DNA of 32,105 bases, from contig CANGKR010000011.1 of assembly GCA_947454355.1 (NCBI GenBank), positions 1 to 32,105 of the forward strand, in the 5' to 3' direction. The stretch is from Comamonadaceae bacterium. Lineage in GTDB: Bacteria; Pseudomonadota; Gammaproteobacteria; Burkholderiales; Burkholderiaceae_C. The position numbers and the translations under genes are program-made. Under the pieces are notes generated by a model, which was not told the DNA's origin, searched no databases, and worked only from the letters and a program-made list of their open reading frames with translations. Of the stretch, positions 5,741-23,678 are shown in pieces (position 1 is the stretch's first letter; each line of letters starts with the position of its first letter).

Positions 5741-5829
5741 GTCTTGACAATGTGGCAAGACATGCTTGATGACATGACAATTCCAACGAGTTAAATGTCT
5801 TGGTAAATTTTCGTTCAATCCCAATTGAA
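5741..5829. promoter_or_regulatory. Inverted repeats upstream of the aldehyde dehydrogenase
   Basis: GTCTTG (5741-5746) and CAAGAC (5756-5761) form a dyad with 9-base spacing that includes a TTGACA-like -35 (5744-5749). A second dyad, TTCAAT-CCCA-ATTGAA (5814-5829), ends 12 bases before the aldehyde dehydrogenase start codon, where no Shine-Dalgarno is visible. GTCTTG also occurs at 5702 and 5786. These may be operators, or structures that affect translation of the gene. No regulator can be assigned. Confidence 0.3.
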
Positions 5830-7302: not shown

Positions 7303-8139
7303 TCAACGCGCTCTGGCCAGTAACCTTTGGGCCTGCAGCACGACAGGCGCGTCGATCATCTCCCCTCGTAACTGCATGGCTGCCCCGCCAGAAGCGCTCA
7401 TGGCCGAGACCACTGACTGCGCCCAGAGCAACTCCTTTTCAGTCGGTTGAAATGCCGCGTGGACAGCAGGCACTTGACGCGGATGAATACACAACTTGCC
7501 GCCCATGCCAAAACGCAACGCACGTTCGGTATCCTCTCTCCATGAGGACTCGTCTTCGATGGAGACACTGACACCATCAACGGCACTGGCCAGATACGCC
7601 GCCCGAGAATGCACAGCGACTGCAAACCGCAAAGAATTCAGCTCGGCTTGGTCTCGCGAGCACGTCATGCCGGTATCCGAAAGAAAATCGATGTGTCCCA
7701 CCACCAAACGACAGACATGGGCAGCATTGGCGATGTGTTGCAAAGCCAGGTAACCCTTGGCACTTTCGATGATCGGCAGCAAAACTGCCTGGGGTAAGTG
7801 TTGGGCCAACGAACGCAAACCAAGTTCCGACTCACATTTGGGAACCATCAGTCCCGCCAGGGGCACGCCTGTCAAAGCCATCAAGTCAGATGAACCCTCA
7901 TCAGATTCAGGCGAATTGCATCTCACCACGATGCAAGCTTTGCCAGTCAACATCGGCAGGGCTCGAATAACCGATTGGCGAGCATCGTCTTTTGCGGACA
8001 AAGGCACACTGTCTTCCAGATCGAGCACCACTGCGTCTGCTCCACTGTCGATGGCTTTCTGGAATCGCTCTGGTCGATTACCTGGCACGAACAACAATGA
8101 CCGTGCAAGGGCCAAAGGGGACGACAGGTTCGCACTCAT
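7303..8139 (-). CDS. CitE-like CoA-ester lyase (HpcH/HpaI aldolase superfamily)
   Basis: A 278-residue member of the citrate-lyase-beta/malyl-CoA-lyase family, which cleaves 3-hydroxyacyl-CoA esters such as malyl- or citramalyl-CoA into an acyl-CoA and a 2-oxo acid. Seen: the start SLLFVPGNRPERFQKA, the strand VVLDLEDSV (D40, E42), VVRCN with R73, PKCES (100-104), and the metal-binding pair E125 (LPIIES) and D151 (GHIDFLSD). It is the last gene of a four-gene operon; its ATG directly follows the upstream TGA (TGAATG). The two CaiB-type CoA-transferases in the island would provide its CoA-ester substrate. Whether it really uses CoA or acts as a plain aldolase is not decided by the sequence. 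Confidence 0.88.
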   Translation of the reverse strand: MSANLSSPLALARSLLFVPGNRPERFQKAIDSGADAVVLDLEDSVPLSAKDDARQSVIRALPMLTGKACIVVRCNSPESDEGSSDLMALTGVPLAGLMVPKCESELGLRSLAQHLPQAVLLPIIESAKGYLALQHIANAAHVCRLVVGHIDFLSDTGMTCSRDQAELNSLRFAVAVHSRAAYLASAVDGVSVSIEDESSWREDTERALRFGMGGKLCIHPRQVPAVHAAFQPTEKELLWAQSVVSAMSASGGAAMQLRGEMIDAPVVLQAQRLLARAR

Positions 8140-9048
8140 TCAGCGTTCTTCCGCCTGTTGCAACAAATCCTTGAACTGTGAGACCTGCTGGGCATCAATA
8201 CCACCAGCCTGTTCAGCGAGGGCCACCGTGCGCAGACAAAGCGTGGTGTAGAAGTGCAGCATATCCTCGCCCATCGGTGAAATCGCACGCAAATGCTTGT
8301 CAATTGAAGACAGGTCTGCACGGGAAACCGGACCCGGCATGCCACGTGCCACCCCCGCTCGCTGAATAGAGCTGAGCGTGCCCTGAGCCAAAGGTAGCAA
8401 AGCCCGCAAGGCTTGCTCTTCGGTCGCGCCCCATGTTTGCCAGAGGCACACGGCCTGATCGAACAATGCGTTGATGAACTGAGACGTATACCCAGCCGCG
8501 GCATGGTAGCGGCCCCGCATGCCTGCAGGCAATTGATTGGCCACACACCCAAGTCCTTGCGTCATTTCCAACAGCACGCGCATCAAACCTGCATCTTCCG
8601 CTTCTACCGTGATCGTGCAACCTGGCAATGAACTGACGGCTGCGTGCGGATCGCCAAAGGTTTGCATCGGATGAAAACCCCCAATGCAAGCGCCATGCGA
8701 GCGCGCTGTGGTCAAGGCATCCACTTCAGTGACGCCGCTGCAATGCACAGCGGCTTGTCCATTTCGCCACTCCAATTCGTCGCAAGTGTTCTGAATGACA
8801 CTATCTGGTGTGGTCACAAACACCAGATCGCAGGCATCCACCACCGCTTGAGCTGACACAGTGGTACAGCCTTGTATCGGTTCAGCCAAGGCAGCGGCAT
8901 GCGCCTCTACCAGGCTGTGAACCGCCACCACCCTCAGGCCCGATTGGGCCAGGCTCCATGCCAGGGCTTGTCCCAAGCGACCCGCGCCGATGAAACCGAT
9001 GCGCAAGGAGTGTGACGCTCCCAGAGACAGTGTGTTCATCGCGGTCAT
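8140..9048 (-). CDS. Rossmann-fold dehydrogenase with DUF2520 domain
   Basis: A 302-residue protein with an N-terminal NAD(P)-binding domain (IGFIGAGRLGQAL; G21-x-G23-x2-G26) and a helical C-terminal DUF2520 domain marked by YHAAAGYTSQFINALFDQA, LLPLAQGTL and a GPVSRAD stretch. The family resembles 6-phosphogluconate and F420-dependent NADP oxidoreductases; biochemical roles are poorly known. In this operon a role as a 2- or 3-hydroxyacid oxidoreductase is a reasonable inference. Its start overlaps the stop of the upstream gene (ATGA at 9045-9048), and its stop abuts the CitE-like gene. An ATG three codons downstream (9039) is an alternative start. Confidence 0.85.
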   Translation of the reverse strand: MTAMNTLSLGASHSLRIGFIGAGRLGQALAWSLAQSGLRVVAVHSLVEAHAAALAEPIQGCTTVSAQAVVDACDLVFVTTPDSVIQNTCDELEWRNGQAAVHCSGVTEVDALTTARSHGACIGGFHPMQTFGDPHAAVSSLPGCTITVEAEDAGLMRVLLEMTQGLGCVANQLPAGMRGRYHAAAGYTSQFINALFDQAVCLWQTWGATEEQALRALLPLAQGTLSSIQRAGVARGMPGPVSRADLSSIDKHLRAISPMGEDMLHFYTTLCLRTVALAEQAGGIDAQQVSQFKDLLQQAEER

Positions 9049-10190
9049 GCCTTGACCCTGCCGGTCCAGGTTTGATGACCTGCCAGCTGGGACAGGTCAG
9101 GAACGGCCCCTAGCCCTGGTCCGGTAGGCACGGGCACACTTCCGTCTCGCACCGGCAGCAACTCACCCACCACGGCTTCACGCCCCAAATTGGGGTGTGC
9201 ATCGAACTCCAAAACTCCCTCGCCGCCCACTGCTGCCAAAACGTGCAAAGAAGCCAACAAAGAAACACCGCCACCAAAATAATGGGGGCAATACCTTTTA
9301 CCTGCTGCGACTGCTCGTCTTGCCACCTGTGCATTACCGCTCACGCCGCCCCACTTGGTGATGTCAGGTTGAATAACATGCAGAACCGAACCGTCTAAGG
9401 CCTGATCAAACTGCTCGTTGTGAAAATTTTCACCCCCTGCCAACGGTGTTGAGCTGAATTTGGACAGTTCCTCCCATTCGGATGCGGGCGCATCTACACG
9501 CAAGGGCTCTTCAAACCATGCCAACTTCAAAGGTGCGATGGCTTTGACAAAAGCCTTCGCAGCGGGAAGATCCAGGTTTTGATTGGAGTCACAAGTCAAC
9601 TCTACTGAGGGGCCCAGTGCTTCTCGCATGGCTTGCAGGTTGCGGACATCCAAGTCATGCCCAAAACCAGTTTTAAGTTTAAAAGACCGGAAACCCTCGG
9701 CCTGACGGGCTGCAGCAAACACTTCGGGTTGATCGGGGTTGATACCCGTCACATACACAGGCACTTGTTGCGCATCGCGCTGGCTGATCATGCGGTGTAA
9801 GGGTTTGTTGGCGCGGCGAGCCACCAGGTCCCAACAGGCGATGTCGATACCGGCCAAGACCTGCGCAATCGGTCCCACTTCCAAGGTTTGTAGCACCAAT
9901 ACTTCAAGTTCCTGACTGAGCTGGCGAAACAACTGCTCGGGCGAATCAAAATGCTTGCCGACCATGCGTTCACCCAAATCAATCGACAAGCGTGCACGGT
10001 GTTCGGCACCACTGGCGGGCCAATTGGCCCAGACTTCACCCCAGCCTTCAGCGCCATGGTCGTCGACCACACGGAGCAAGACCATTGGCCGATCGCGGAA
10101 GGTCCCAAATGCCACTTTGATGGGCATCTTAACGGGTACCCGAATGCAAAAAGCTTCGATCGAAACCAGATGGAGTGACAGGTCGTGCAT
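9045..10190 (-). CDS. Mandelate racemase/muconate-lactonizing (enolase superfamily) enzyme
   Basis: An acid-sugar dehydratase or racemase candidate of about 381 residues. The MR-type catalytic set is visible: KxK motif K171/K173 (FKLKTG), metal ligands D201 (TCDSNQN), E227 or E228 (WFEEPL) and E254 (GGENFH), and the His-Asp dyad D276 (QPDITKWGG) with H303 (CPHYFGG). Having both the KxK and His-Asp arrangements fits the mandelate racemase subgroup rather than MLE; many such proteins dehydrate aldonic or aldaric acids. ATG 10190 is chosen because AAGGA lies eight bases upstream and it avoids the 29-base overlap of a start at 10241. It sits directly after a lactonase gene, a common pairing in sugar-acid pathways. 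Confidence 0.92.
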   Translation of the reverse strand: MHDLSLHLVSIEAFCIRVPVKMPIKVAFGTFRDRPMVLLRVVDDHGAEGWGEVWANWPASGAEHRARLSIDLGERMVGKHFDSPEQLFRQLSQELEVLVLQTLEVGPIAQVLAGIDIACWDLVARRANKPLHRMISQRDAQQVPVYVTGINPDQPEVFAAARQAEGFRSFKLKTGFGHDLDVRNLQAMREALGPSVELTCDSNQNLDLPAAKAFVKAIAPLKLAWFEEPLRVDAPASEWEELSKFSSTPLAGGENFHNEQFDQALDGSVLHVIQPDITKWGGVSGNAQVARRAVAAGKRYCPHYFGGGVSLLASLHVLAAVGGEGVLEFDAHPNLGREAVVGELLPVRDGSVPVPTGPGLGAVPDLSQLAGHQTWTGRVKA

Positions 10191-10212
10191 GCTCAATTTC
10201 CTTGTGAATATG

Positions 10213-11136
10213 TCATTGGGCGCGAGGCCCGTGGATTGCAAAACGGGGTTCTGGTAAACCGCGAACTCCCGGGCGAAGGGCCATCAAGGCGCCGGCCATC
10301 GGGTGCGCCAATCGTTCTTCCTCGCTCATGTGCTGAGAAGTGCTGGTGATATACAAAATGTCCAATTCCGGACCGCCAAAGGCGCAGCAAGTCGGTCGGT
10401 CTACCGGCAAATCCAAGATCCGATCCAAACGACCGTCGGGTGCAAAACGCAAGAGTCGCCCACCATTGAATTCGGCATTCCACAAAAAACCTTCGGCATC
10501 GACAGCCGATCCATCCGGGAATGCGGGGGGGGTGCTTTCTGCAAATACCCTTGCTTTTCCCATGGTTCCGGTCTCCGGGGCATAGGTATGGGCATAAATT
10601 CGGTAATGCAATGAATCGGCGAAATACAATGTATCCCCTCCCGGACTGAAGGCCAGGCTGTTGGGGATACACACCCCTTGCAGGACCGGCTGCAGCGGAC
10701 CCGCGCCTTCCAAACAGAACAGCGTTCCTTCAGGTGCACGGGTGATGTTGTGCATGCTGCCGACCCAAAACCTGCCACGCTCGTCGCACCGTCCATCATT
10801 GAAACGATGCCCCTCCGGCATCTGCAGATTCGACAAGAAAGGCTTCAGGTGACCGTCCGCAGGATCGAAAAGTGCCATCTGATTGGGCAAAGCCACCAAC
10901 AAGCGACTGTCATCGGTCAAGGCGATTGAGCCGACCAGATCTGGCATGGCCCAGGTGTCCACGACGCCTGTGTCATGGCACAAACGCCGAATCGCAGGAC
11001 GGCGGATGTCGACCCAATACAGACAATTGGCGATGCCGTCCCACAACGGGCACTCCCCCAGAATGTCGGATTGTGTCCCCACGCGTTGCAATTCATGCGA
11101 CGCCATGGCCTGCTGTGGTGCCTTGAAATCATTCAT
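10213..11136 (-). CDS. SMP-30/gluconolactonase family lactonase
   Basis: A six-bladed beta-propeller lactonase of about 307 residues, which opens sugar-acid lactones. Numbered from ATG 11136, expected metal ligands are E28 (ILGECPLWD), N159 (CIPNSLAF) and D208 (FPDGSAVD), plus the substrate-side RFNDGRCD at 111-118. It is the first gene of the leftward operon, opposite the SDR-transporter operon, with a 32-bp perfect dyad between them. The start is uncertain: GTG 11157, ATG 11136 and ATG 11106 are all in frame and none has a good Shine-Dalgarno; the domain itself begins near residue 15. Partner enzymes (SDR upstream, enolase-superfamily downstream) support an oxidise-open-dehydrate order. Confidence 0.9.
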   Translation of the reverse strand: MNDFKAPQQAMASHELQRVGTQSDILGECPLWDGIANCLYWVDIRRPAIRRLCHDTGVVDTWAMPDLVGSIALTDDSRLLVALPNQMALFDPADGHLKPFLSNLQMPEGHRFNDGRCDERGRFWVGSMHNITRAPEGTLFCLEGAGPLQPVLQGVCIPNSLAFSPGGDTLYFADSLHYRIYAHTYAPETGTMGKARVFAESTPPAFPDGSAVDAEGFLWNAEFNGGRLLRFAPDGRLDRILDLPVDRPTCCAFGGPELDILYITSTSQHMSEEERLAHPMAGALMALRPGVRGLPEPRFAIHGPRAQ

Positions 11137-11197
11137 AACGTCGATGCTAGAAGCCACCGTGCCGTCAGGGAATCAAATTTGCAGCAAACTGACCTTG

Positions 11198-11229
11198 ACA
11201 CAAACGCAAGGCCAGCCTTGCGTTTGTGT
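11198..11229. promoter_or_regulatory. Perfect 32-bp inverted repeat between divergent catabolic operons
   Basis: ACACAAACGCAAGGC (11198-11212) is followed by CA and then its exact reverse complement (11215-11229). It lies about 60 bases upstream of the lactonase gene and about 85 bases upstream of the SDR gene, where a shared operator is expected. Neither side has a T-run, so it is not a usual rho-independent terminator. The regulator is unknown; the LysR-type gene in the island is the only local candidate, though LysR sites are normally shorter and less perfect. Confidence 0.7.
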
Positions 11230-11313
11230 GAAGTGTGCATTGACCAAGTTTCAATTCCACCCCGACTGCATGCCCATTAGGATGACACCACTGATAAACA
11301 AGCTGTGAACCTC

Positions 11314-12126
11314 ATGAATGCAACCACCTCTTTGGATGCCACTCCACCATTGTTTGGCGATCTGGCACCCCAAAAGCTTTTTTCACTCGCGGGCCAAGTG
11401 GTGATGATCACGGGCGCTGCCGGAGGTATTGGTGGCGCTCTGGCCCGCGGCTTTGCTGCTGCTGGTGCCAAACTCATCGCCTGTGACCTTGTGCCGCGCA
11501 TGCACGATCTGGCCGATCAATGGCGTACCCAAGGTATGGATGTCGAGTCCATGGTCTTTGATGTCACCCGCGAAGACGATATCGCCAATGCTTTTGCCCA
11601 AGTGACCGAGAGACATGGCCGGCTGGATGTGCTGGTCAACAATGCTGGCGTTATTGTGCGCACACCCTTTCTTGAATTGGAGCGCCATGAATGGCAAAAG
11701 GTCATGGACACCGACCTGACTGCCTGCTTTTTAATGGCACAGCATGCGGCGCGCATGATGGTGGCGCAAGGTCATGGCCGCATCATTCACCTGAGTTCCA
11801 TCATGAACCATGTGGCACGCCCTAATCTGGTGCCCTATGTGGTGGCCAAAGGCGGCGTCTCTGCTTTGACTCGCGCCATGGCTGCAGACTTGGGCGGCAC
11901 AGGCGTGACCGTCAATTCATTGGCACCAGGTTACACCCACACCGAGTTCAGTCAAGCCAAAGATGTTGAATTCAATGCATTTGTGTCAGGCTGGACGCCC
12001 GCACGCCGCTGGGGTCAACCCGAGGACCTGTGCGGCGCTGCATTGCTCCTGGCCTCGGGCGCTGGCGCCTACATCAACGGTCAAACCCTGTATGTGGATG
12101 GCGGCTTTTTGGCTGTCACCCGCTGA
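11314..12126 (+). CDS. Short-chain dehydrogenase/reductase (gluconate 5-dehydrogenase-like)
   Basis: Classical SDR of about 270 residues. Cofactor motif TGAAGGIG (33-40 from ATG 11314), NNAG at 109-112, and the catalytic Ser (HLSS, 161-162), Y175 and K179 (PYVVAK). The family oxidises secondary alcohols on sugars or sugar acids. It has an N-terminal extension of roughly 20 residues. GTG 11305 is an alternative start three codons upstream; neither has a clear Shine-Dalgarno. It leads the rightward operon and is followed 16 bases later by the transporter genes, so it probably acts on the imported compound or its early product. Confidence 0.92.
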   Translation: MNATTSLDATPPLFGDLAPQKLFSLAGQVVMITGAAGGIGGALARGFAAAGAKLIACDLVPRMHDLADQWRTQGMDVESMVFDVTREDDIANAFAQVTERHGRLDVLVNNAGVIVRTPFLELERHEWQKVMDTDLTACFLMAQHAARMMVAQGHGRIIHLSSIMNHVARPNLVPYVVAKGGVSALTRAMAADLGGTGVTVNSLAPGYTHTEFSQAKDVEFNAFVSGWTPARRWGQPEDLCGAALLLASGAGAYINGQTLYVDGGFLAVTR

Positions 12127-12142
12127 GGTACAAGGAGTCGAA

Positions 12143-12937
12143 TTGCCCCAGTTATCACTCAGTCACTTGCTGCAGGCCTACCGGCCGATGTGGGTTTCGC
12201 TGCGCGCCTTTGCCGGCTTTTTCCTGCTTTGGTGGCTACTCCATCTTTGGAACGGCAACCCTTTGCAACTGCCTTCACCCGGGAAAGTGTTTGAAGCCCT
12301 CTGGGCTTTGCTGCGTGAAGGCGAAATCGCAGAACACGCTGGGGTCAGCACAGTGCGGATGTTGCTGGCCTTGAGTTTGGCTGTCATTGTGGCTGTCCCC
12401 TTGGGTTTTGTCATGGGCCTGTCGAGACATGCCGAGGAACTCATTGGACCTATGGTGGAAATGCTCAGGCCCATCTCCGGGATCGCGTGGCTGCCCTTGG
12501 CGCTGTTCATCTTCGGAGTGGGTGACACCTTGCCCGTGTTCATCATGTTCTATGTGGGCTTTTTCCCCATCTTATTGAACACGGTGGCGGGTGTTCGGCA
12601 AACCGATCGACGTTTGCTGTCAGCCGCTAAGACCATGGGTGTTCGGCCTCTGCCCTTGCTGCTTTATGTGCTGGTGCCCTCGGCCCTGCCTACCATCATG
12701 GTCGGGATCCGATTGGCTTTCGCCGCCAGTTGGGCGGCTATCGTAGCGGCCGAGCTGATCGGTGCACCCAGTGGCCTGGGCTTTGCGATCGAGTGGTACC
12801 GGCAACTCTTGATGACGCCCAAAGTCTTTGCCTTCATCCTAGCCATTGGCGTGGTCGGCTATTTGTGCGATCTGGGATTGCGAGCCCTGCAGAAAAAACT
12901 GACCCCCTGGACCGAAGGTTCAGGCATCGTGCCATGA
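12143..12937 (+). CDS. ABC transporter permease (SsuC/TauC type), first copy
   Basis: Inner-membrane permease of 264 residues of the nitrate/sulfonate/taurine class. Several hydrophobic segments are visible (for example FAGFFLLWWLLHLW, LLALSLAVIVAVPLGFVMGL, TLPVFIMFYVGFFPILL), and the EAA-type loop that contacts the ATPase reads LLSAAKTMGVRP with the usual later LVPSALPTI. I chose TTG 12143: AAGGAG lies five bases upstream, and it gives the normal family length and N terminus. The longer open frame runs back into the SDR gene and is not credible as coding. Its stop overlaps the second permease start (ATGA). Confidence 0.9.
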   Translation: MPQLSLSHLLQAYRPMWVSLRAFAGFFLLWWLLHLWNGNPLQLPSPGKVFEALWALLREGEIAEHAGVSTVRMLLALSLAVIVAVPLGFVMGLSRHAEELIGPMVEMLRPISGIAWLPLALFIFGVGDTLPVFIMFYVGFFPILLNTVAGVRQTDRRLLSAAKTMGVRPLPLLLYVLVPSALPTIMVGIRLAFAASWAAIVAAELIGAPSGLGFAIEWYRQLLMTPKVFAFILAIGVVGYLCDLGLRALQKKLTPWTEGSGIVP

Positions 12938-13728
12938 AACACTCTGTCGATAACCGAACACAGGTCATTGTTCGACATCTGGCCTTGCCCGCCTTGCTTA
13001 TCATGGTCTGGCAACTTTGGGCTTTGAATTTACCGGCAGGCAGCCCCGCTCCCTCCCCCGTCAAAGTCGTTCAAACTTTTGGCGAATTGCTGAGCAAAGG
13101 CTCTTTGATCTCGGCCACGGTTCAAAGTATGGGGCGAGTCCTGATGGGCTTCGCCATGGCATCCGTGTTGGGCATCATCTTGGGCTTGCTCATGGGTTCG
13201 AGTCGGGCCATGCGTGAAAACCTGGACCCGATCATCGAGAGCTTCAGACCCATCGCACCGATGGCCATTTTGCCGATCGCCATCTTGTGGCTGGGCACCG
13301 GAACGCCCACCGCTTTGGCCATCGTGGCCTATGCCTCTTTTTTTCCTGTAGTCGTCAACACCGTACACGGCGTCAGTCATGTGGATCGCAAACTGATTCT
13401 GGCGGCCAGGACGATGGGGATTTCTCAATGGACCATCCTCACACGGGTGGTTTTACCAGGTGCATTGCCCTCGATTTTGCTAGGCACAAGGCTGGCCATG
13501 GGGGTGGCTTGGACGGCCATCATCGCAGCCGAACTGGCTGTGGGAGCCAAATCTGGCGGCGGAGGCTCCGGCGGCATCGGCCAAATGATGTTCGTGTTCT
13601 ACGCCTACAACATCGATCTCAATGCCATTGTGGTTTGCATGACCGTGGTGGGCCTGGTCGCCCTGTGTATCGATCAAATTTTCAGAGTCCTCGAAAAACG
13701 TCTGATCCCATGGAGACAAGAAGTATGA
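12934..13728 (+). CDS. ABC transporter permease (SsuC/TauC type), second copy
   Basis: Second membrane subunit, also 264 residues, with an N-terminal membrane helix (LALPALLIMVWQLWAL), further helices (VLMGFAMASVLGIILGLLMG, ALAIVAYASFFPVVV) and the EAA loop LILAARTMGISQ followed by VVLPGALPSILLG. It is clearly related to the first permease, so the importer is likely to use a permease heterodimer instead of the single SsuC/TauC permease of classical systems. A glycine-rich stretch (KSGGGGSGGIGQ) replaces the usual linker before the last helices. ATG 12934 overlaps the upstream stop, and its own stop overlaps the ATPase start (ATGA). Confidence 0.9.
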   Translation: MKHSVDNRTQVIVRHLALPALLIMVWQLWALNLPAGSPAPSPVKVVQTFGELLSKGSLISATVQSMGRVLMGFAMASVLGIILGLLMGSSRAMRENLDPIIESFRPIAPMAILPIAILWLGTGTPTALAIVAYASFFPVVVNTVHGVSHVDRKLILAARTMGISQWTILTRVVLPGALPSILLGTRLAMGVAWTAIIAAELAVGAKSGGGGSGGIGQMMFVFYAYNIDLNAIVVCMTVVGLVALCIDQIFRVLEKRLIPWRQEV

Positions 13729-14591
13729 CCCCCCCCACCGCCGACACCAAACTGCGCCTGACAGGCGTGACCAAGAGTTTTTTCACGCCCCGAACCGGGA
13801 CCAACACTCTGGCCGTAGCAGAAATGAACCTGGACATCCAGACTGGAGAATTCATTTGCATCGTCGGTCCTTCCGGTTGCGGAAAATCCACCGTACTGAA
13901 CATGATTGCGGGCCTGGACCAACCCAGCGGTGGTCGGATCGAAAAAGACGGCCAAGGTATCACCGGGCCAGGTGCCGATCGGGGTGTGATGTTCCAAGAC
14001 TATGCCTTGATGCCTTGGCAGTCCGTCGAAGACAACGTGGGATTTGGCCTGCGTCACGGCACACCAGGTGAGAACATGTCGACCAAGCAACGCCAAGAGC
14101 GCGTTGCTCATTTCATCGATTTGGTGGGTCTCAAAGGGTCTGAGCACAAATACCCGCACCAATTATCTGGTGGCATGAGACAACGTGTGGCATTGGCTCG
14201 GTTGTTGGCTAATGGCCCAGACATCCTGCTGCTGGATGAGCCACTGGGCGCTTTGGACGCACAAACGCGTTTGATTTTGCAAGCCGAGTTGCTGCGCATT
14301 TGGGGCGAAACTTCCCCTGTGTCTGAGCGCAAGACGGCCATCTTCATCACGCATGACATTGAGGAAGCCGTTTTATTGGCAGACCGCGTGGTGGTGATGA
14401 GCACTCATCCGGGGTGTGTGCGCGAGGTGGTCACCATCGACATCCCCAGACCCCGGGCCGGACATGCACGCACCAACCCCCGATTCGGTGTGCTGGTTGA
14501 GCACATCTGGTCCTTGATCCGTGACGAAGCGTTTCGCGCCATCGGCGGCGCGACTTCGGCAGAATCCGCATCCCCAGAAACCACCCACTGA
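13725..14591 (+). CDS. ABC transporter ATP-binding protein (SsuB/TauB type)
   Basis: ATPase of 288 residues energising the importer. Walker A GPSGCGKST at 48-56, Q-loop in VMFQDYALMPW, signature LSGGMRQR from 147, Walker B ILLLDEP with D171/E172, then LGALDAQTR and the switch histidine in FITHDIEEAVLLADR. The MFQDYALMPWQSVEDNV block is typical of the nitrate/sulfonate/taurine ATPases. ATG 13725 overlaps the upstream permease stop by four bases; the open frame further upstream is a shadow within the permease gene. The tail after about residue 270 is extended and Ala/Ser/Thr-rich. Confidence 0.95.
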   Translation: MTPPTADTKLRLTGVTKSFFTPRTGTNTLAVAEMNLDIQTGEFICIVGPSGCGKSTVLNMIAGLDQPSGGRIEKDGQGITGPGADRGVMFQDYALMPWQSVEDNVGFGLRHGTPGENMSTKQRQERVAHFIDLVGLKGSEHKYPHQLSGGMRQRVALARLLANGPDILLLDEPLGALDAQTRLILQAELLRIWGETSPVSERKTAIFITHDIEEAVLLADRVVVMSTHPGCVREVVTIDIPRPRAGHARTNPRFGVLVEHIWSLIRDEAFRAIGGATSAESASPETTH

Positions 14592-14627
14592 GTGGTCCAT
14601 TTTGATTTCAACCCCTAGGAGACATTT

Positions 14628-15863: not shown

Positions 15864-15892
15864 ATCACAAAAACTGAAACTGGAGTCTATTT

Positions 15893-16795: not shown

Positions 16796-16812
16796 CTCGA
16801 ATTGGAACACCC

Positions 16813-17109
16813 GTGCCCGCTTACATCATCAACGACATGGAGATCACGGACCCTCATCGCTTCGAGGAATACAAGCTGTTGTCACCGGCGACGGTGAAGG
16901 CATACGGCGGAAAATTCCTGGCACGCGGTGGCGAGGTCAACACATTGGAGGGTGACTGGCAACCGAGACGACTGGTCATTCTCGAATTCCCGGACCGGGC
17001 GCAAGCCCAAGCTTGGTTGAACTCACCCGAGTACGCTCCTGCCAGGCGACTGCGTCAGTTATCCGCCAATTCGCGCATGGTGGTGATTGACGGATTCACG
17101 TCCGTCTGA
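16813..17109 (+). CDS. DUF1330 family protein
   Basis: A 98-residue protein of the DUF1330 family, a ferredoxin-like dimeric alpha/beta-barrel fold. Typical blocks are visible: MPAYIINDMEITDPHRFEEY, KAYGGKFLARGG, and LVILEFPDRAQAQAWLNSPEYAPARRLR. Function is unknown; members often accompany catabolic enzymes. It starts with GTG at 16813, 17 bases after the dehydrogenase stop, so it is the last gene of the rightward operon. Two hairpins follow it. Confidence 0.9.
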   Translation: MPAYIINDMEITDPHRFEEYKLLSPATVKAYGGKFLARGGEVNTLEGDWQPRRLVILEFPDRAQAQAWLNSPEYAPARRLRQLSANSRMVVIDGFTSV

Positions 17110-17130
17110 GCAAAGCTAGTAAGGCTTTGA

Positions 17131-17150
17131 TGCCGTCACATCCGACGGCA
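17131..17150 (+). other. Hairpin after the rightward operon
   Basis: TGCCGTC and GACGGCA form a perfect 7-bp stem around ACATCC, 21 bases after the DUF1330 stop codon. It lacks a T-run, so it is more likely an mRNA 3'-end stabiliser than a terminator by itself; it lies immediately before the better terminator candidate at 17155. Confidence 0.45.
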
Positions 17151-17154
17151 GCTT

Positions 17155-17186
17155 GCCCATATGTTTTCATGGCATGTGGGCTTTTT
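17155..17186 (+). terminator. Rho-independent terminator of the rightward operon
   Basis: GCCCATATG pairs with CATGTGGGC (9 bp, one G-T wobble) around a 9-base loop and is followed by TTTTT. It follows the DUF1330 gene and overlaps the 3' end of the convergent CoA-transferase gene by 20 bases. Confidence 0.7.
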
Positions 17187-18309
17187 CTTGAAGCGAATCT
17201 ATCAATTGTCCGTGTTCATCCACTGCAGGCGCGCCCCTTAGATAGGCCATGGCCTGCCAAGGCGATTGACAAGCAGGTGCGGGCATCTCTACAGGTCGGC
17301 CACGCACCATCACCTGCTGGGTTCGCAACTGCGGATGATGAATCAAATCTAAAACAGAATTGAGGGTACCAAAAGGCGTTTGCGCTTCTGTCAAACGATC
17401 AGTCACCTCACCCCAAGTCAGCGCCCCAATCACAGCTTGAATCATGTCCTCGATCAGTTGGCGGTGAATACCTCGTGAGGCACTGTTGACAAATCTCACA
17501 TCCGCGATGAGTTCGGGCTGTTCCATCACATGTTGACAAAAAGCGTGCCACTCTCGGTCATTTTGTACTGCCAACACCAATTCGCGGCCGTCACTGCAAG
17601 TGAATGCACCGTAAGCCGCAATACTGGGATGTTTCAGGCCGCCGCGCTCAGGTGCAGAACGGCCATAACGCGCCTGCAAATACGGCACGGCCATGAGTTC
17701 TGCTGCGGCATCAAACAAGGACACATGCAAAGCACTGCCCTGCCCAGTGCGCTCGCGCAATAGCAGTGCTTCCAAAATGCCTTGCGCAGCATTCATGCCA
17801 GCAGTGATATCGCAAATCGACACGCCAATGCGACCCCAGGGCCCCGGAGCGCCATTGACAGACACCAAACCGCTCTCAGCTTGCACCAGCAAGTCGTAGG
17901 CCTTGAGGTCGTTCATAGGCCCGCTCTCACCATAGCCGCTGATGTCGCAGGTAATCAGACGGGGCATGGCGGCACGCAAGGCATCCGAACCCAGACCCAA
18001 CCGTTTGGCCGCGCCGGGAGCCAAATTTTGTATGAAGACATCTGCATGGGCCAATAAAGCCATCATTTGCGCCATATCGGTCGCTTGACGCAGGTCTAGC
18101 GCTACCGACTCCTTGCCTTGATTGATCCACACAAAGTACGAGGACTCGCCATACACTTCTCGGTCGTAATCGCGCGCGAAATCACCTTCAGGTCGCTCGA
18201 TTTTCAAGACGCGTGCACCCGCTTGAGCCAAACGGCTTGAACAGTAGGGGGCCGCCACAGCATGCTCCAGCGATACCACCAGCACGCCTTCAAGGGGTTG
18301 TAGACTCAT
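17167..18309 (-). CDS. CaiB/BaiF family (class III) CoA-transferase, copy A
   Basis: Cytoplasmic enzyme of 380 residues that moves CoA between carboxylic acids. Family blocks: VVSLEHAVAAPYCSSRLAQAGARV at the start, KIERPEGDFARDYD, NQGKESVALDL, ITCDISGYGESGP, and the catalytic aspartate D167 in SICDITAG (equivalent to D169 of formyl-CoA transferase). Length is normal. It closely resembles the second CoA-transferase at 22327, with near-collinear N termini. Its ATG overlaps the LysR gene stop (ATGA at 18306-18309), so it is translated with the regulator as the last gene of a six-gene operon. Acid substrate unknown; dicarboxylic or hydroxyacids are plausible because a CitE-like lyase is in the island. 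Confidence 0.93.
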   Translation of the reverse strand: MSLQPLEGVLVVSLEHAVAAPYCSSRLAQAGARVLKIERPEGDFARDYDREVYGESSYFVWINQGKESVALDLRQATDMAQMMALLAHADVFIQNLAPGAAKRLGLGSDALRAAMPRLITCDISGYGESGPMNDLKAYDLLVQAESGLVSVNGAPGPWGRIGVSICDITAGMNAAQGILEALLLRERTGQGSALHVSLFDAAAELMAVPYLQARYGRSAPERGGLKHPSIAAYGAFTCSDGRELVLAVQNDREWHAFCQHVMEQPELIADVRFVNSASRGIHRQLIEDMIQAVIGALTWGEVTDRLTEAQTPFGTLNSVLDLIHHPQLRTQQVMVRGRPVEMPAPACQSPWQAMAYLRGAPAVDEHGQLIDSLQEKAHMP

Positions 18310-19235
18310 GACACATTTCCTGATTGCGATCCATCTTCATCGGGCAAATGGCCGCGATGGCATAAAAATTCAATGAGTTTGCTCACCGACAGCAAACTGG
18401 CCCTGTCTTTGCGCGTGCACAGCATCATGCGCCGCACTGCCCAGTCATCACTGAAGGGACATACAGCCAAGTCCAGTCCTTTGGCCAGCACCCGAGCGGC
18501 TTGCTCAGGCAACAAGCCCAGCCCCAAGCCCGCTTCTACCATATGGCACACGGCTTCAAAGCTACGCACTTGCACCCGCAATTGCAACGTTTTTTCTGCA
18601 ATCACGGCTTGTGCCGCGAGCAACCGTGTCATGGACGATCCGCCTTCTAAGGTGATCAACTCATCGTCCAAGACATCACTGAATTTGAGAGACTCAAACG
18701 CCGCTAAGGGATGGTCCAGCGGCATCACAACCGCCAGTCTGTCTTGACAATAAGGGTACGCTTCCAAACCTTCGACCGGCGTGCCCTCCACCACAATGCC
18801 CACGTCGGCCTCAGCAGCTTGCAGTTCGCGAACGATCTCCTCACTCCATCGTTCTTGGACAATGACTTTGACATCCGGGTTGTGGTGCGCAAATGCGGCC
18901 AAATCATTAGGCAAGGTGTCCGTGATGACCGAGGTGTTGGCCAGTAACCGTAAAGCGCCTTTTCGGCCATTGGCATGGTCGCTCATTTCGGCCTGCATCA
19001 GGTTGAGCTCCACCAGCAAAGCCCGAGCACGAGGCAGCAAGGCCATGCCAGCAGGGGTCAACTCCACACCGCGCGAAGATCGCTCCAACAAAGTGGTGCG
19101 AAAGCGGTGCTCCAGCAAAGCCATACGTCGACTGGCAGCAGCCAGCCCCATGTGGGAGGCTTCTGCGGCCTTGGTCAGGCTGCGCAATTCGGCTGCGCGG
19201 ACAAACAGGGCCAATGTGTCTATATCTGGGAGCAT
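18306..19235 (-). CDS. LysR family transcriptional regulator
   Basis: Regulator of 309 residues. N-terminal winged helix (IDTLALFVRAAELRSLTKAAEAS, AAASRRMALLEHRFRTTLLERSSRGVELTPAG) and a C-terminal effector-binding domain with the usual LRLLANTSVITDTLP start and a GLGLGLLPEQAA block. ATG 19235 gives the standard LysR N terminus and has GGAAG upstream; the open frame extends to 19325 but into the intergenic region and the upstream gene end. Unusually, it sits inside the operon between the ApnL-like gene (14 bases) and CoA-transferase A (ATGA overlap), instead of being divergent from its target. It probably controls this operon, and perhaps the other two units, in response to a pathway intermediate. 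Confidence 0.93.
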   Translation of the reverse strand: MLPDIDTLALFVRAAELRSLTKAAEASHMGLAAASRRMALLEHRFRTTLLERSSRGVELTPAGMALLPRARALLVELNLMQAEMSDHANGRKGALRLLANTSVITDTLPNDLAAFAHHNPDVKVIVQERWSEEIVRELQAAEADVGIVVEGTPVEGLEAYPYCQDRLAVVMPLDHPLAAFESLKFSDVLDDELITLEGGSSMTRLLAAQAVIAEKTLQLRVQVRSFEAVCHMVEAGLGLGLLPEQAARVLAKGLDLAVCPFSDDWAVRRMMLCTRKDRASLLSVSKLIEFLCHRGHLPDEDGSQSGNVS

Positions 19236-19249
19236 TTCATGTCTTCCAT

Positions 19250-21190
19250 CTATTGAGGCAAATCGATCAGGACCAGGGCATAAGGTTTCAAGCTGAAGGG
19301 TGCATGAGTTTCCCCTTTGACCCAAGGACTCACCTCGGTAAAGCCTTTATAGTCAAGCCAGCTTTGTGCGTCCATCCTAGCCCATGAACATTCGGCTTGC
19401 CAGTGTAGCGGCTGGGATTGCTCTGTCAGATTGGCGATCATCATCTGCCGTCCTGCTGGACCAGCCCCCACGATGGCCGCGAAGGGCCAATAAAACCAAG
19501 GAAAAATTCTTTCTTGGAGTACTGATGGTTCCTGCAATTGAATGCCCTGCCAAGACATGCAAACCTCTAGCATGGCCTCTGTGGGGGTTACCCATCGTGT
19601 GCCGGGTTCATCTATCTGATCATGCGGGCGGCTGCTCAATGCTGGCAGCGTCAAAGCTCTCACCCCGGCTTGTGCCGCCCCGGCCATGTGACCGATCAGC
19701 CACGCTGCACCAAACAAGCCGTGGCTGCGCGGATCGACCGATGCCAAAGGGACTCGCCTACTTCCATCACTGATCGGTTGTCTGCCCAAGGGACTCGCGC
19801 GGGCACCCAAGCCACTCGGACCCAGATGCCATTCACGCCCGGGATGTCTGCGCCTCGCTGTGGCCAGCATCGAGGGCAAACTCTGCAGTCCTCGCATCAC
19901 CGCTGTATCGTCGACGCTGTGGACAATGGGGCAAACTGTGAACGCCATGAAATCCTCCCCGCCGCTTCTTTCAAGACGATTCAATTGCGCGAAAAAATGA
20001 GGTGTACCCCCACCGACAGAAACCATAGGGAACAAGCTGCGCAAACAGGCCACAGCGCGTTCACCACAAGGCAATGCAGCCACAGCAGAGGGCACTACAT
20101 TCGCTTGGGCTATGGCCTGAGCCAGTTGTTGGGCTGCGGCCTCATCGTCAGCGCCCCAGTCACGATGCGCTGCATCATCCACACACAAATCAATGCGCAG
20201 CTTAGCCTTGGCTGCATCCAGCATGCAGCCAAGCTGTGCCCAAGCCACAGTCTTGATGTCGCTGAAGGACCAGAGCGTGAGGTGTAAAAAATAGGGTTGC
20301 CAGCGCGTCAACAACGACAACAATGCAGACGTGGGTTGAAGCGTTGCGGATGATGTGATGATCAACCCCAAGCGCATGTGACCCGCACCATTGCTATGCG
20401 AAATTTCAGTGATCCTACTTGGCGGGATATCGTAGATGGGCCGCACAGGATTAGCGGGCGCCACATTCTCCAGCCGCAAATGCATTTCTCTTTGCCAAGA
20501 TTGATGCCGATGCAGTACATAGGGCCTGGGCATCCAATTAGATCGGCTGTAGGTCTTGAATGAAGCATCGGCATTGTTGCGCTGATCTTCAATTTCGTAG
20601 TCTTCCCCAAGCAACACTGCCTGCGCCCAGCACGCTGGGGCATATTCATGCCGGACGCCATTCACATTGGTGAAAGGTGGCCATGCCGGCACCTCTTGCG
20701 GAAATTGGGAATGCGTGACGCGGCCATCGATATGGCTGACTTGGACAGCAGAGCCTGCGGCAGACAAAGCATGCATCAACACCCAACCACAGCGATTGAC
20801 CCGAAGCTCATGGCTGGGTGTTGCCTTTACAGAAAAATGTAAATGTCCCTGTGCATCACCGTGCACATGCATTTCCAAACTCAAACGCGCTTGAGGGTCC
20901 CAGTCACCAGAAACATCGTCTGCAGAACAAGGAATGTGGGCCTTCAAGTGGAGTACAAAGCTCACATCGTCCATCTGCAGCTGCTCGCAGTCGAGCACCG
21001 TCACAGGGGTTCCCCAACCTGAATCGCGCAGCAAAAACTCCACACCATGCCAGACCTCATGGCCATGGACGCAGATCGGACCGAAATGCGTACCCTGGCG
21101 CACCAACGAAACAGGACCTGCCCTCAAACTCTGGCGAAGGGCCAGCGTTTCGTGACATCCGAAAAGAGCCCGCTGCTCGGCATCCGACAT
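19250..21190 (-). CDS. ApnL-like lactonase (D-apionate lactonase family), probable
   Basis: A large protein of about 646 residues. I recognise the pattern of the D-apionate lactonase (ApnL) family: an N-terminal beta domain (SLRAGPVSLV, VEFLLRDSGWGTP, and HIDGRVTHSQFP), the highly conserved stretch EDQRNNADASFKTYS at 201-215, a middle alpha/beta region (about 270-540) that fits the family's TIM barrel, and a C-terminal beta domain. ApnL hydrolyses D-apionolactone to D-apionate; this protein may open the same or another branched or sugar lactone. ATG 21190 is used; an in-frame TTG at 21214 overlaps the SDR stop. Neither start has a Shine-Dalgarno, so translation may depend on coupling to the upstream SDR. 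Family assignment is from memory of the motif. Confidence 0.68.
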   Translation of the reverse strand: MSDAEQRALFGCHETLALRQSLRAGPVSLVRQGTHFGPICVHGHEVWHGVEFLLRDSGWGTPVTVLDCEQLQMDDVSFVLHLKAHIPCSADDVSGDWDPQARLSLEMHVHGDAQGHLHFSVKATPSHELRVNRCGWVLMHALSAAGSAVQVSHIDGRVTHSQFPQEVPAWPPFTNVNGVRHEYAPACWAQAVLLGEDYEIEDQRNNADASFKTYSRSNWMPRPYVLHRHQSWQREMHLRLENVAPANPVRPIYDIPPSRITEISHSNGAGHMRLGLIITSSATLQPTSALLSLLTRWQPYFLHLTLWSFSDIKTVAWAQLGCMLDAAKAKLRIDLCVDDAAHRDWGADDEAAAQQLAQAIAQANVVPSAVAALPCGERAVACLRSLFPMVSVGGGTPHFFAQLNRLERSGGEDFMAFTVCPIVHSVDDTAVMRGLQSLPSMLATARRRHPGREWHLGPSGLGARASPLGRQPISDGSRRVPLASVDPRSHGLFGAAWLIGHMAGAAQAGVRALTLPALSSRPHDQIDEPGTRWVTPTEAMLEVCMSWQGIQLQEPSVLQERIFPWFYWPFAAIVGAGPAGRQMMIANLTEQSQPLHWQAECSWARMDAQSWLDYKGFTEVSPWVKGETHAPFSLKPYALVLIDLPQ

Positions 21191-21210
21191 GGGGGTCGAA
21201 AGTGAGTTTG

Positions 21211-21963
21211 TCAAATGGTGCGACCGCCGTCGACCGGCAATTCAACCCCCGTGATGAAGGCTGCAGCATCGCTGGCCAAATACAAGGCGGCCTTGGCCAC
21301 ATCTTCAGGTGTTGACATGCGTCCCAGGGGAATGCCCGCTGTGATGCGAGCACGCGCCTCTGGGGTGTCGGCAGTCCCTAAAAACTGCTCGATCAAGCCT
21401 GTGGCACCCATCACTGGACATATGGCGTTGACGCGGATGCCATCAGGCCCTAACTCGGCTGCCATGGATTTGGACATCAAATTGACCGCGCCTTTCGAGG
21501 CGTTGTACCAAGTCAATCCCGGGCGCGGCCGAATACCAGCTGTCGAACCAATGTTGATAATGACCCCTTGCCCCTTTTGGCGCATCAAGGGTACTACGGC
21601 CCTGGCCATGTGGTAAATGGATTTGACGTTGACATTGAAGACCCGGTCAAACGTAGCCTCGTCCACGTCGAGCATAGGCTGGTTGCGGTGCGTAGTCCCA
21701 GCGTTGTTGACCACGATGTCAGGCACGCCCAGGTGTTGCACACAAGCGTCCACAGCCTGTTTCACCTCTTGGCCTTTTGACACATCACATGCCACAGCGA
21801 AGGCTGCAGGTCCTAAACTTGCCGCGACAGTTTGTGCACGTGCTGCGTCCAGGTCCGCAATCAATACACGCGCTCCCTCTTGGACGAACAAACGTGCAAT
21901 GCCCTCACCGAAACCCGCACCAGCGCCTGTGATGATGGCTATTTTGTTTTGCAATACAGACAT
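21211..21963 (-). CDS. Short-chain dehydrogenase/reductase, second copy
   Basis: Classical SDR of 250 residues. Cofactor motif TGAGAGFG (12-19), NNAG (86-89), catalytic S140 (NIGSTAG), Y153 and K157 (WYNASK), then the late PVDGGRTI end. It shares only the family features with the other SDR at 11314 and is not a recent duplicate. ATG 21963 is chosen because AAGGG lies upstream at good spacing and the result is the normal family length; the open frame upstream adds only 12 residues. It directly precedes the ApnL-like lactonase gene, so a role making a lactone or oxidising a sugar alcohol carbon is plausible. Confidence 0.93.
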   Translation of the reverse strand: MSVLQNKIAIITGAGAGFGEGIARLFVQEGARVLIADLDAARAQTVAASLGPAAFAVACDVSKGQEVKQAVDACVQHLGVPDIVVNNAGTTHRNQPMLDVDEATFDRVFNVNVKSIYHMARAVVPLMRQKGQGVIINIGSTAGIRPRPGLTWYNASKGAVNLMSKSMAAELGPDGIRVNAICPVMGATGLIEQFLGTADTPEARARITAGIPLGRMSTPEDVAKAALYLASDAAAFITGVELPVDGGRTI

Positions 21964-21973
21964 TGGATTCCCT

Positions 21974-22309
21974 TCACGGCCAGAGCATCTGGTGCTCAAC
22001 CGAAATGATGGGGGAGACGTCTTTGGCGAAGTTGGGCAAATCCGCCAACAAGGTCTTGCCCTCAGGACTGGACAATGCGTGGGTCAAATCGGCCTCGGAG
22101 TCGAACCACAACTCAGAAAATCCATCGTAATCAAAATGTGGAAAACGCGCGCGATCCACCAAATTGACCGAATAGCGACGCAGCCCGGGCAATTTGACAC
22201 ACAGTGCCGCATGGCGCTGGAGCCAATGCTCCTTGAAATCATGATGGCTCATACCATCCTTGCATCGCAAAATTCCCAAGCGTTTAACGTAAGTGACGGG
22301 GGTTGTCAT
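21974..22309 (-). CDS. EthD domain-containing protein
   Basis: A 111-residue protein with the EthD dimeric alpha/beta-barrel pattern: VKRLGILRCKDGMSHHDFKE, then HWLQRHAALCVKLPGLRRYSVN, then DGFSELWFDSEADL. EthD-type proteins accompany many degradative operons; some are catalytic isomerases or lyases, most are of unknown role. ATG 22309 follows GGAG at a usable distance; the in-frame open stretch upstream lies in the CoA-transferase gene end. It sits 17 bases after CoA-transferase B and 10 bases before the SDR, inside the same operon. Confidence 0.88.
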   Translation of the reverse strand: MTTPVTYVKRLGILRCKDGMSHHDFKEHWLQRHAALCVKLPGLRRYSVNLVDRARFPHFDYDGFSELWFDSEADLTHALSSPEGKTLLADLPNFAKDVSPIISVEHQMLWP

Positions 22310-22326
22310 GCAGTTCTCCATTTTCT

Positions 22327-23517
22327 TCAGTGAGGTTTTGAAACAGGGGGTGGGGCCGAGGCGGCGAACTCTTGTCGCAGCGCCTCGCCATGGGAGTCGA
22401 TATCGGGTGCAGGGAGATAGGATGGCGACTCCCACTCCACTTGCCAGGGCAAAGCCGGCATCTTGACTACTTGATGGCCCACAGGCATATCACGTGTCCG
22501 CAATTGCGGATGCACCATCAAATCGCTTACTGAATTCACATGGCCATAGGCCGTTTGCGCCATGTCCAAGCGTTGGATGGCCTGGGCACTTTCCAAGGCG
22601 GCGAAAACATCTGTGACCACACCATCGACAAATGCGCGATGGTTGCAACGTGCGGCGTTATCTGCGCAACGAGGATCCGCGAGAAGATCAGGACGCTGCA
22701 AGACGATTTTGCAAAAAGCTTGCCATTCCCGCTCGTTTTGAATCGATATGACCAACTCCCTGCCATCGCCACAAGGAAACACCCCGTAAGGCGTGATAGA
22801 AGGATGTTTCAAACCCACCCGATCAGGTGCACGACCGCCGTATCGACCTTGCAGATAAGGCACGCTCATCAATTCGGCTGCGGAGTCAAATAGCGACACA
22901 TGCACGCTGCTACCCTGCCCCGTCAAATGCCTTTGCAAGACAGCTTGCTGAATGCCAATCAAGGCATTCATGCCGGCCGTAATATCACACAAAGACACGC
23001 CAATACGCCCCCACTCACCGGGTGCACCGCTGACGGCAATCAAGCCCGACTCCGCTTGAACCAGCAAGTCGTATGCTTTCATCTGATGGTAGGAGCCATG
23101 CGCGCCATAGCCACTGATGTCACAGGTGATCAGGCGAGGATGATGGGCGCGCAAGGACTCAGAACTTAGACCCAACCTGGCTGTAGCCCCTGGGGCCAGA
23201 TTTTGTAAAAACACATCGGCGCCGGCCAACATGGCTTTCAAGATGCTCAAGTCCTCTGGTTTCTTGAGATCCAACGCGATGGACTCCTTGCCCCGATTGA
23301 TCCAGACAAAATAAGAAGACTCGCCGTGAACATGTCGGTCGTAACCCCGCGCAAAGTCGCCTTCGGGTCGTTCAATTTTGATCACACGCGCCCCAGCATC
23401 GGCCAGTCGACTGGAGCAATACGGCGCCGCAACCGCTTGCTCCAGGGCTACGACCAACAAGCCCTGCAGGGGTTTGACTGTATTTTTTAACGAGTGATGA
23501 GGTGTCGTATCGCTCAT
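22327..23517 (-). CDS. CaiB/BaiF family (class III) CoA-transferase, copy B
   Basis: First gene of the six-gene leftward operon, about 396 residues. The blocks match copy A closely: VVALEQAVAAPYCSSRLADAGARV, KIERPEGDFARGYD, NRGKESIALDLKK, ITCDISGYGAHG, and the catalytic aspartate in SLCDITAG. Its C terminus differs more and ends with a Pro/Ala-rich tail. The start is uncertain: ATG 23517 gives a family-like N terminus after a short lead (MSDTTPHHSL), and other in-frame starts lie at 23550 and 23637; none has a clear Shine-Dalgarno. With copy A it may form a heteromer, or handle a second acid or the reverse step of the same transfer. Confidence 0.92.
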   Translation of the reverse strand: MSDTTPHHSLKNTVKPLQGLLVVALEQAVAAPYCSSRLADAGARVIKIERPEGDFARGYDRHVHGESSYFVWINRGKESIALDLKKPEDLSILKAMLAGADVFLQNLAPGATARLGLSSESLRAHHPRLITCDISGYGAHGSYHQMKAYDLLVQAESGLIAVSGAPGEWGRIGVSLCDITAGMNALIGIQQAVLQRHLTGQGSSVHVSLFDSAAELMSVPYLQGRYGGRAPDRVGLKHPSITPYGVFPCGDGRELVISIQNEREWQAFCKIVLQRPDLLADPRCADNAARCNHRAFVDGVVTDVFAALESAQAIQRLDMAQTAYGHVNSVSDLMVHPQLRTRDMPVGHQVVKMPALPWQVEWESPSYLPAPDIDSHGEALRQEFAASAPPPVSKPH

Positions 23518-23678
23518 GAATGCATGGAAGGTGACCACATGACTTGGCATTGTGGTGGCCAAATACCGCCACAGGAATTGCCATTGTTCAAAGCCTTCCT
23601 TGCCAAACTGGAAACACCCCTGAAAGACTGAAGGCATGGCCTCAAAGAGTGACCAAGAAAAATCTGAACACCCATGTC

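Follow-up and report, generated by a model that had tools for sequence, protein, structure and literature searches.

We analysed a window of 32,105 bp, contig CANGKR010000011.1 (C11) of assembly GCA_947454355.1, from the genome of a Comamonadaceae bacterium (G000) that comprises 2.69 Mb in 222 contigs and is 85% complete. Genes were assigned from the open reading frame (ORF) listing together with Pfam and NCBIfam scans, which covered 30 ORFs of the window. Between coordinates 5842 and 23517 lies an island of about 18 kb, which we interpret, within an explanation of the locus that we hold as a whole with moderate confidence, as one co-regulated and patchily inherited catabolic unit. Every gene family named in a preliminary description of this DNA was found by the scans, and the genes inside the range given there (7303-23517) are real; this range stops short of an aldehyde dehydrogenase (ALDH) gene at 5842-7275 (plus strand) that is also a member of the island. 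Two genes for small proteins, DUF1330 (16813-17109, plus strand) and EthD (21974-22321, minus strand), were likewise absent from that description.

The ALDH gene (Aldedh, PF00171, E 1.3e-160) is followed on the minus strand by genes encoding a CitE/RipC-type lyase of the HpcH/HpaI-CitE family (7303-8139; PF03328 and PF15617), whose substrate is probably a coenzyme A (CoA) ester, a DUF2520 Rossmann-type dehydrogenase (8140-9048; PF10728 and PF03807), a mandelate-racemase-subgroup (MR) enzyme that is probably an acid-sugar dehydratase (9045-10196; PF13378/PF02746), and an SMP-30/gluconolactonase-type lactonase (10213-11157; PF08450, E 4.3e-76). Divergently from the latter, on the plus strand, are found the genes for a gluconate-5-dehydrogenase-like short-chain dehydrogenase (SDR1, 11305-12126; PF13561), two ATP-binding cassette (ABC) permeases (12137-12937 and 12934-13728; both PF00528), their ATPase (13725-14591; PF00005), an NMT1/SsuA-type periplasmic binding protein (14628-15863; PF09084), an HIBADH-family dehydrogenase (15893-16795; PF03446/PF14833) and, directly after it, the DUF1330 protein (PF07045, E 1.8e-33). 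The minus strand then encodes a type III CoA-transferase (CaiB2, 17167-18309; PF02515), a LysR regulator (18306-19235; PF00126/PF03466), an ApnL-like putative lactonase (19250-21214; NCBIfam NF049900, below cut-off), a second SDR of the glucose-1-dehydrogenase subfamily (SDR2, 21211-21963; NF005559, 347.8 bits against a cut-off of 215) and another type III CoA-transferase (CaiB1, 22327-23517; PF02515), with the EthD protein (PF07110, E 6.1e-16; MmlI below cut-off) between CaiB1 and SDR2. Two similar modules can be recognized, EthD-SDR2-ApnL-like and SDR1-SMP-30, the second with DUF1330 in the SDR1 operon; our guess is that the EthD and DUF1330 proteins could be mutarotase- or isomerase-like helpers.

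The three promoter regions of the island each contain one copy of the motif GGAATTG-N8/9-CAA, and these are the three copies in the window: upstream of the ALDH gene (5766-5784, minus strand, with the N9 spacing), in the divergent SMP-30/SDR1 control region (11240-11258, minus strand), and upstream of the CaiB1-EthD-SDR2-ApnL-like unit (23574-23591, plus strand). Shuffles of the window gave a mean of 0.35 copies, and none of 100 reached three; the whole genome holds 18 copies. Exact copies are present in the aligned divergent control regions of 13 of 16 relatives and in five of nine aligned ALDH promoters, that of the window among them, and in one further relative (L156) the motif core lies near CaiB1 at a different distance. 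Because the motif occurs once per promoter region and 18 times in the genome, the three units probably form one regulon, and the LysR protein of the island is a candidate for the regulator that binds it. The divergent control region also contains an inverted repeat with 19-nt arms and a 2-nt spacer (11194-11233), a probable operator, which in the alignment with 16 relatives is well preserved in the closest of them and degenerate in more distant ones. Among the relatives, its core arms were recovered in exact form only from L010, L011 and L018, and a stricter form occurs in four of 204 loci, including the window's own; a half-site search gave a result near chance (10 hits, of which two belong to the repeat, with 8 of 100 shuffles reaching 10).

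The same gene set recurs in other genomes. With the MR protein as query, a scan of the GTDB genomes, from which the best 80 of 323 loci were taken, yielded among these 17 close relatives (63-87% identity, L010-L026), whose neighbourhoods contain the same genes, mostly in the same order, as far as the contigs extend. A family-level search with the ApnL-like protein gave matches in 6 of 299 genomes, one of them the window's own; in the others the match was accompanied by an MR at 67-72% identity in G097, G115 and G205, by an MR of only 44% in G082, and by no MR at E 1e-60 in G046; three other genomes of the same genus had no match. At the order level, 24 of 399 genomes gave a match to the MR (E 1e-80), the closest one outside G000 having 51% identity, and eight of these neighbourhoods, when inspected, offered no clue to the substrate. 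Since the three same-genus genomes lack an ApnL-like match, and since no MR above 51% identity was found outside G000 in the order search, the island appears to be accessory and patchy. Going by their record titles, Limnohabitans sp. MMS-10A-192 and Ramlibacter rhizophilus CCTCC AB2015357 are among the relatives.

Co-occurrence was counted in 21 genomes, the window included, which were picked by MR and in three cases also by the ApnL-like protein, using identity thresholds of 55% (34% for ApnL and CitE, 50% for DUF2520, 60% for LysR and 70% for ALDH) and requiring more than 20% of the query in one piece, a limit that the CitE pieces in G205 and G1060 do not reach. SDR1 was found in all 21 genomes, as was the MR by selection, the permeases in 21 and 20, the ATPase and SMP-30 in 20 each, the binding protein in 19, at least one CaiB in 19 (CaiB1 and CaiB2 cross-match), the ApnL-like protein in 19 (three by selection), LysR in 18, HIBADH in 17, DUF1330, DUF2520 and EthD in 15 each, SDR2 in 14, and an ALDH orthologue at at least 70% identity in nine, the window included. 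Absences in these counts are weak, the stretches often being ended by contig ends and some being drawn from two contigs per genome, and the counts do not establish adjacency genome by genome. Genome-wide, 15 of the 17 MR-reached genomes encode the ApnL-like protein, the two misses being metagenome-assembled genomes with short contigs around the MR gene. Genome G115 carries the front-end genes, importer, HIBADH, DUF1330, CitE and CaiB in a single run with ALDH, EthD, ApnL-like and LysR. Each of the four flanking genes (OppD, MerR, MBL and LytB) was found in one of the 21 genomes, the window itself, which is also the only one with the ORF at 5310-5621 upstream of ALDH (103 aa, sub-threshold NIPSNAP/DUF6854 similarity only).

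The preliminary description would be refuted if its three units were not conserved together in relatives; across the 21 genomes they are. As the gene set recurs and the three promoter regions have a motif in common, the island is a real, recurring gene set, more than chance would give. Separate pathways that merely lie side by side could account for the positions of CaiB, ALDH and CitE, which differ from genome to genome, but the set recurs in different surroundings, with ApnL-like and MR together in 15 of 17 genomes, and its units have the promoter motif in common; we consider such a juxtaposition very unlikely, and independent units were rejected on the strength of co-occurrence and the shared motif.

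The SMP-30 protein aligns over its length with the solved SMP-30 proteins 7plb and 2ghs. The MR enzyme has as its closest solved chain 3ddm, deposited as a putative MR/MLE enzyme, and reaches 115 bits with the galactonate dehydratase model (cut-off 311); the KxK and GEN strings are found in 21 of 21 and the CPHxxGGG string in 19 of 21. SDR1 is under the cut-off of all 25 NCBIfam models among the matches listed, and for ALDH, too, no specific model was above its cut-off among these matches, while the best model for HIBADH is sulfolactaldehyde 3-reductase (NF012005; 251.7 bits, cut-off 348). Plasmid searches returned two records for SDR1 and none for HIBADH. The binding protein scores 77 bits with SsuA_fam (cut-off 163.5), and its structure model (mean predicted local distance difference test, pLDDT, of 63) has SsuA and TauA as best fold matches; the model thus supports an SsuA/TauA-type fold only, not a ligand. 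A class-level search with this protein at E 1e-60 matched one of 369 genomes, G000 itself. Second ABC importers occur in or beside the clusters of L115, L137, L117, L175 and L183, with NMT1-type binding proteins in the scanned L175 and L183.

A plasmid of Sulfitobacter mediterraneus (L145; NZ_CP081110.1, 41122-70297) encodes a protein related to the binding protein at 30% identity, beside MR, SDR, SMP-30, DHDPS-family, ALDH and sulfatase genes. This pairing, and the lack of a specific above-cut-off model for ALDH and SDR1 among the matches listed, would suit oxidative breakdown of a different sugar acid (uronate, aldonate or pentose), with the CoA genes forming a side branch. At least one CaiB is present in 19 of the 21 clusters, however, and no DHDPS- or FAH-family gene was found among the island ORFs scanned, so that we regard this route as unlikely.

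The closest described pathway is the sulfofucolytic Entner-Doudoroff (ED) pathway, published in 2025. According to that paper (PMC12421959), it combines an ABC importer with an SDR of family PF13561, a lactonase of the SMP-30 type, a dehydratase of the MR type (PF13378/PF02746) and a lyase of family PF03328; its proteins include SfcH, SfcD, SfcF and SfcE, and the Pfam families are the same as those of the window's core. The remark of the preliminary description that sulfo-ED pathways use other dehydratases is therefore outdated. As comparator we used cluster L226, which lies on plasmid c of Sinorhizobium mexicanum ITTG R7; the paper names this strain, and we infer that L226 is the cluster meant there. 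It contains genes for an SDR, an SMP-30 protein, an MR, a PF03328 protein and an SBP_bac_1 importer protein, as well as a GD_AH-domain gene.

The SDR and SMP-30 proteins of the window have the same PF13561/PF08450 pair as their L226 counterparts, at 36% and 37% identity, and the two MR enzymes have the same Pfam pair at 28% identity. The MR of L226 passes the galactonate dehydratase model with 482 bits, whereas that of the window falls well below the cut-off. The L226 lyase is of the HpaI/GarL type, its 282 bits to the HpaI model falling short of that model's cut-off of 369, and the window lyase, which is of the CitE/RipC type, shows no significant similarity to it (E 0.14); the HpaI type as a mark of the sulfofucolytic pathway was taken from L226, and the Pfam family from PMC12421959. 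The window differs further by its NMT1/SsuA-type importer and by the addition of CaiB, ApnL-like, SDR2, EthD, DUF2520 and ALDH. By its lyase lineage, its MR model score and the added CaiB/ApnL-like/DUF2520/EthD set, it therefore has a sulfo-ED-like front end without being a member of this pathway.

A sulfofucose- or sulfoquinovose-like ED variant, in which SDR1, SMP-30 and MR would produce a 2-keto-3-deoxy sulfo-aldonate for the lyase while HIBADH and ALDH would act on sulfolactaldehyde, is the main rival explanation, and we give it a minor but real chance. Beyond the Pfam families and ABC importer that it has in common with the Sfc proteins (PMC12421959), the SsuA/TauA-like fold of the binding protein and the sub-cut-off sulfolactaldehyde reductase match of HIBADH speak for it. 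It is opposed by the aldolase, MR and SBP_bac_1 binding protein types of L226, by the finding of no sulfolyase, sulfite-exporter or SuyAB family among the 30 window ORFs scanned, and by the absence of a GH31 glycosidase from six of the nine genomes tested, G000 among the six; it would also leave CaiB, ApnL-like and DUF2520 without a nameable role. Sulfoquinovose sulfo-ED proceeds, according to PMC12890257, through a dehydrogenase, lactonase, dehydratase, cleavage and aldehyde oxidation, an order like that of the island, but it differs by its PF00920 dehydratase (PMC12421959), a family with no hit among the window ORFs scanned, and G000 has no GH31. Neither the lineage of the lyase nor the CoA genes suit a sulfosugar route, which was therefore set aside as the principal explanation and kept as its main rival. 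Annotated sulfatase genes lie near MR-family genes in L145 and L147, and ORFs of L023 (4806-6425) and L121 (6717-8306) resemble those sulfatases by N-terminal sequence only.

At the CoA end, the window lyase matches the NCBIfam models RipC and CitE only, the best being RipC (149.9 bits, cut-off 375), the C-C lyase of the itaconate pathway. The protein aligns with solved CitE-like and acyl-CoA lyases, and it carries the C-terminal PF15617 segment and all six motif strings that we take as conserved in CitE-like acyl-CoA C-C lyases. For the lyases of four relatives (L013, L137, L138 and L139) RipC is again the best model, always under its cut-off; all five proteins thus show a sub-cut-off resemblance to citramalyl-CoA lyase. 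On sequence grounds, the lyase thus belongs to the CitE/RipC lineage and not to the HpaI lineage. CaiB1 and CaiB2 are paralogues with 62% identity, and in a tree of 20 rows the CaiB2 clade comprises the window's protein and those of seven relatives, including Limnohabitans and Rhodoferax records; the two CoA-transferase genes of the preliminary description are indeed present, yet as such paralogues they need not mean two steps. A search of solved structures with CaiB2 at E 1e-60 found nothing.

A comparable end is known from the degradation of itaconate and (S)-citramalate (Ict, Ich and Ccl), in which, according to PMC9875883, branched C5 dicarboxylates are broken down via CoA transfer and a C-C lyase. 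The island resembles this pathway in having a CoA-transferase and a RipC/Ccl-like C-C lyase, but its lyase is far under the RipC cut-off and sugar-oxidation genes precede it. No hydratase family, such as an itaconyl-CoA hydratase beside the lyase, was found among the island ORFs scanned.

Catabolism of D-apiose and D-apionate with ApnL proceeds through RuBisCO-like or decarboxylase branches, with gene names such as OiaX and OiaC. The label of the ApnL-like protein comes from NF049900 alone (246 bits, cut-off 750), no Pfam hit being found even at E 1; for comparison, the protein of a Roseibium apiose-type cluster scores 921 bits, and two proteins taken as true ApnL score 524 and 678, also below the cut-off. 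In a tree, the ApnL-like proteins form a clade of their own, apart from five proteins taken as true ApnL. Of these, L149 and L190 lie in annotated clusters that include a four-carbon-acid kinase as well as a Gfo/Idh enzyme, one of the two clusters having a RuBisCO-like gene too; L176 has a RuBisCO-like match, and the other two are L177 and L189. Residues invariant in both groups of a nine-sequence alignment include E207, E209, D210, Q211, R212, D216 and K220, which suggests that the chemistry has been kept. A structure model of the ApnL-like protein was not used (mean pLDDT 42, alignment rows mostly C-terminal pieces). A phylum-level search with the ApnL-like alignment covered 398 genomes and gave matches in 12 of them besides G000.

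The island is similar to the D-apionate pathway in placing an ApnL-family protein beside a sugar-oxidising dehydrogenase. It differs in having neither a four-carbon-acid kinase nor a RuBisCO-like gene, the kinase and the OiaC-type branch not having been searched for genome-wide, and in an ApnL-like protein that lies in a separate clade under the NF049900 cut-off. The RuBisCO-like protein of the Roseibium ApnL cluster had no match at E 1e-10 in G000, a genome 85% complete, and this, together with the separate ApnL-like clade, led us to reject the standard apionate pathway. Within one relative (G692:C190), a RuBisCO-like gene of the apiose-cluster kind (42306) lies about 13 kb from the MR gene (28607). 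The ApnL-like protein of G686 (L151) has 62% identity, against 95% for LysR and 97% for the binding protein, and thus diverges much faster than its neighbours, and the ApnL-like gene of G205 (L006, L009 and L117; G205:C1:10674-12148) is split across frames with one internal stop, through decay of this copy or else a fault in the assembly. A further arrangement (L118, G082:C1:126000-145900) combines a 37% identical ApnL-like protein and an SDR with an SBP_bac_1-type importer, the 44% MR lying some 7 kb off; this may point to a sugar as the substrate class.

The island as a whole is, in our view, best explained as an oxidative front end for a sugar acid that leads into a lyase end working on CoA esters, an explanation that we hold with moderate confidence. 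As the preliminary description had proposed, scans and co-occurrence agree with one catabolic island, the gene families of which suit uptake, oxidation, the opening of a lactone, dehydration and CoA steps. In a step order, and with reactions and a substrate, that we infer, the SsuA-fold ABC system would import an aldose or an aldose-derived acid, the SDR enzymes would oxidise it to a lactone, and SMP-30 would open this lactone, with the ApnL-like protein acting on a lactone in parallel or at a later step. The MR-type enzyme would then dehydrate the acid sugar, the DUF2520, HIBADH and ALDH dehydrogenases would convert the product to a hydroxy-dicarboxylate, a type III CoA-transferase would form its CoA ester, and the CitE/RipC-type lyase would split the latter, giving a 2-oxo acid together with a short acyl-CoA.

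We favour a branched C5 aldose acid, apiose-like, as the substrate class. This is by analogy, since branched C5 dicarboxylates are known to be degraded through CoA transfer and subsequent C-C cleavage, and since the island encodes a member of the ApnL family. More specifically, the island might encode a CoA-dependent pathway for a branched, apiose-like aldose, in which a hydroxymethyl-malate-like dicarboxylate would yield glyoxylate and a 3-hydroxypropionyl-type CoA; we put this forward tentatively, at a low probability. In such a pathway, an SDR with the ApnL-like or SMP-30 lactonase would make the branched aldonate, MR would turn it into a 2-keto-3-deoxy branched acid, and DUF2520/HIBADH/ALDH, then CaiB, then the RipC-like lyase would replace the RuBisCO-like or decarboxylase branches.

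Several observations weigh against the oxidative front end with a CoA-ester lyase end as a single co-regulated pathway. All NCBIfam matches of the lyase, MR, HIBADH and ApnL-like proteins are under their cut-offs, so that their names denote family, not function. The CitE-type lyase gene was found in six of the 21 genomes, the window included, by which this step is not proved as a general exit, and the lyases of L137, L138 and L139 each lack one or two of the motif strings, which makes their activity less sure. The promoter motif was defined post hoc, after promoter inspection; its relaxed form is not significant (two found, a number reached by 17 of 100 shuffles), and its core lies at promoter distance of CaiB1 in three of 11 stretches (the window, L141 and L182). 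Six of 16 genomes gave matches to the Roseibium RuBisCO-like protein, and four of the six carry the island (G687, G692, G693 and G1066), and the SsuA-like importer and YihU-like dehydrogenase would fit a sulfosugar equally well.

Searches of the openly licensed literature, covering titles and the beginnings of abstracts, brought up no published pathway that combines these genes, in line with the preliminary description, and no precedent came to light for the DUF2520 protein or in Limnohabitans. If our explanation is correct, the island would join oxidative sugar-acid catabolism to the cleavage of hydroxy-dicarboxylate CoA esters, a pairing that these searches did not find described. It would give a function to the distinct ApnL-like clade and to the DUF2520, DUF1330 and EthD proteins accompanying it, and it would suggest that Limnohabitans-, Rhodoferax- and Ramlibacter-type bacteria have a carbon source that has so far been overlooked.

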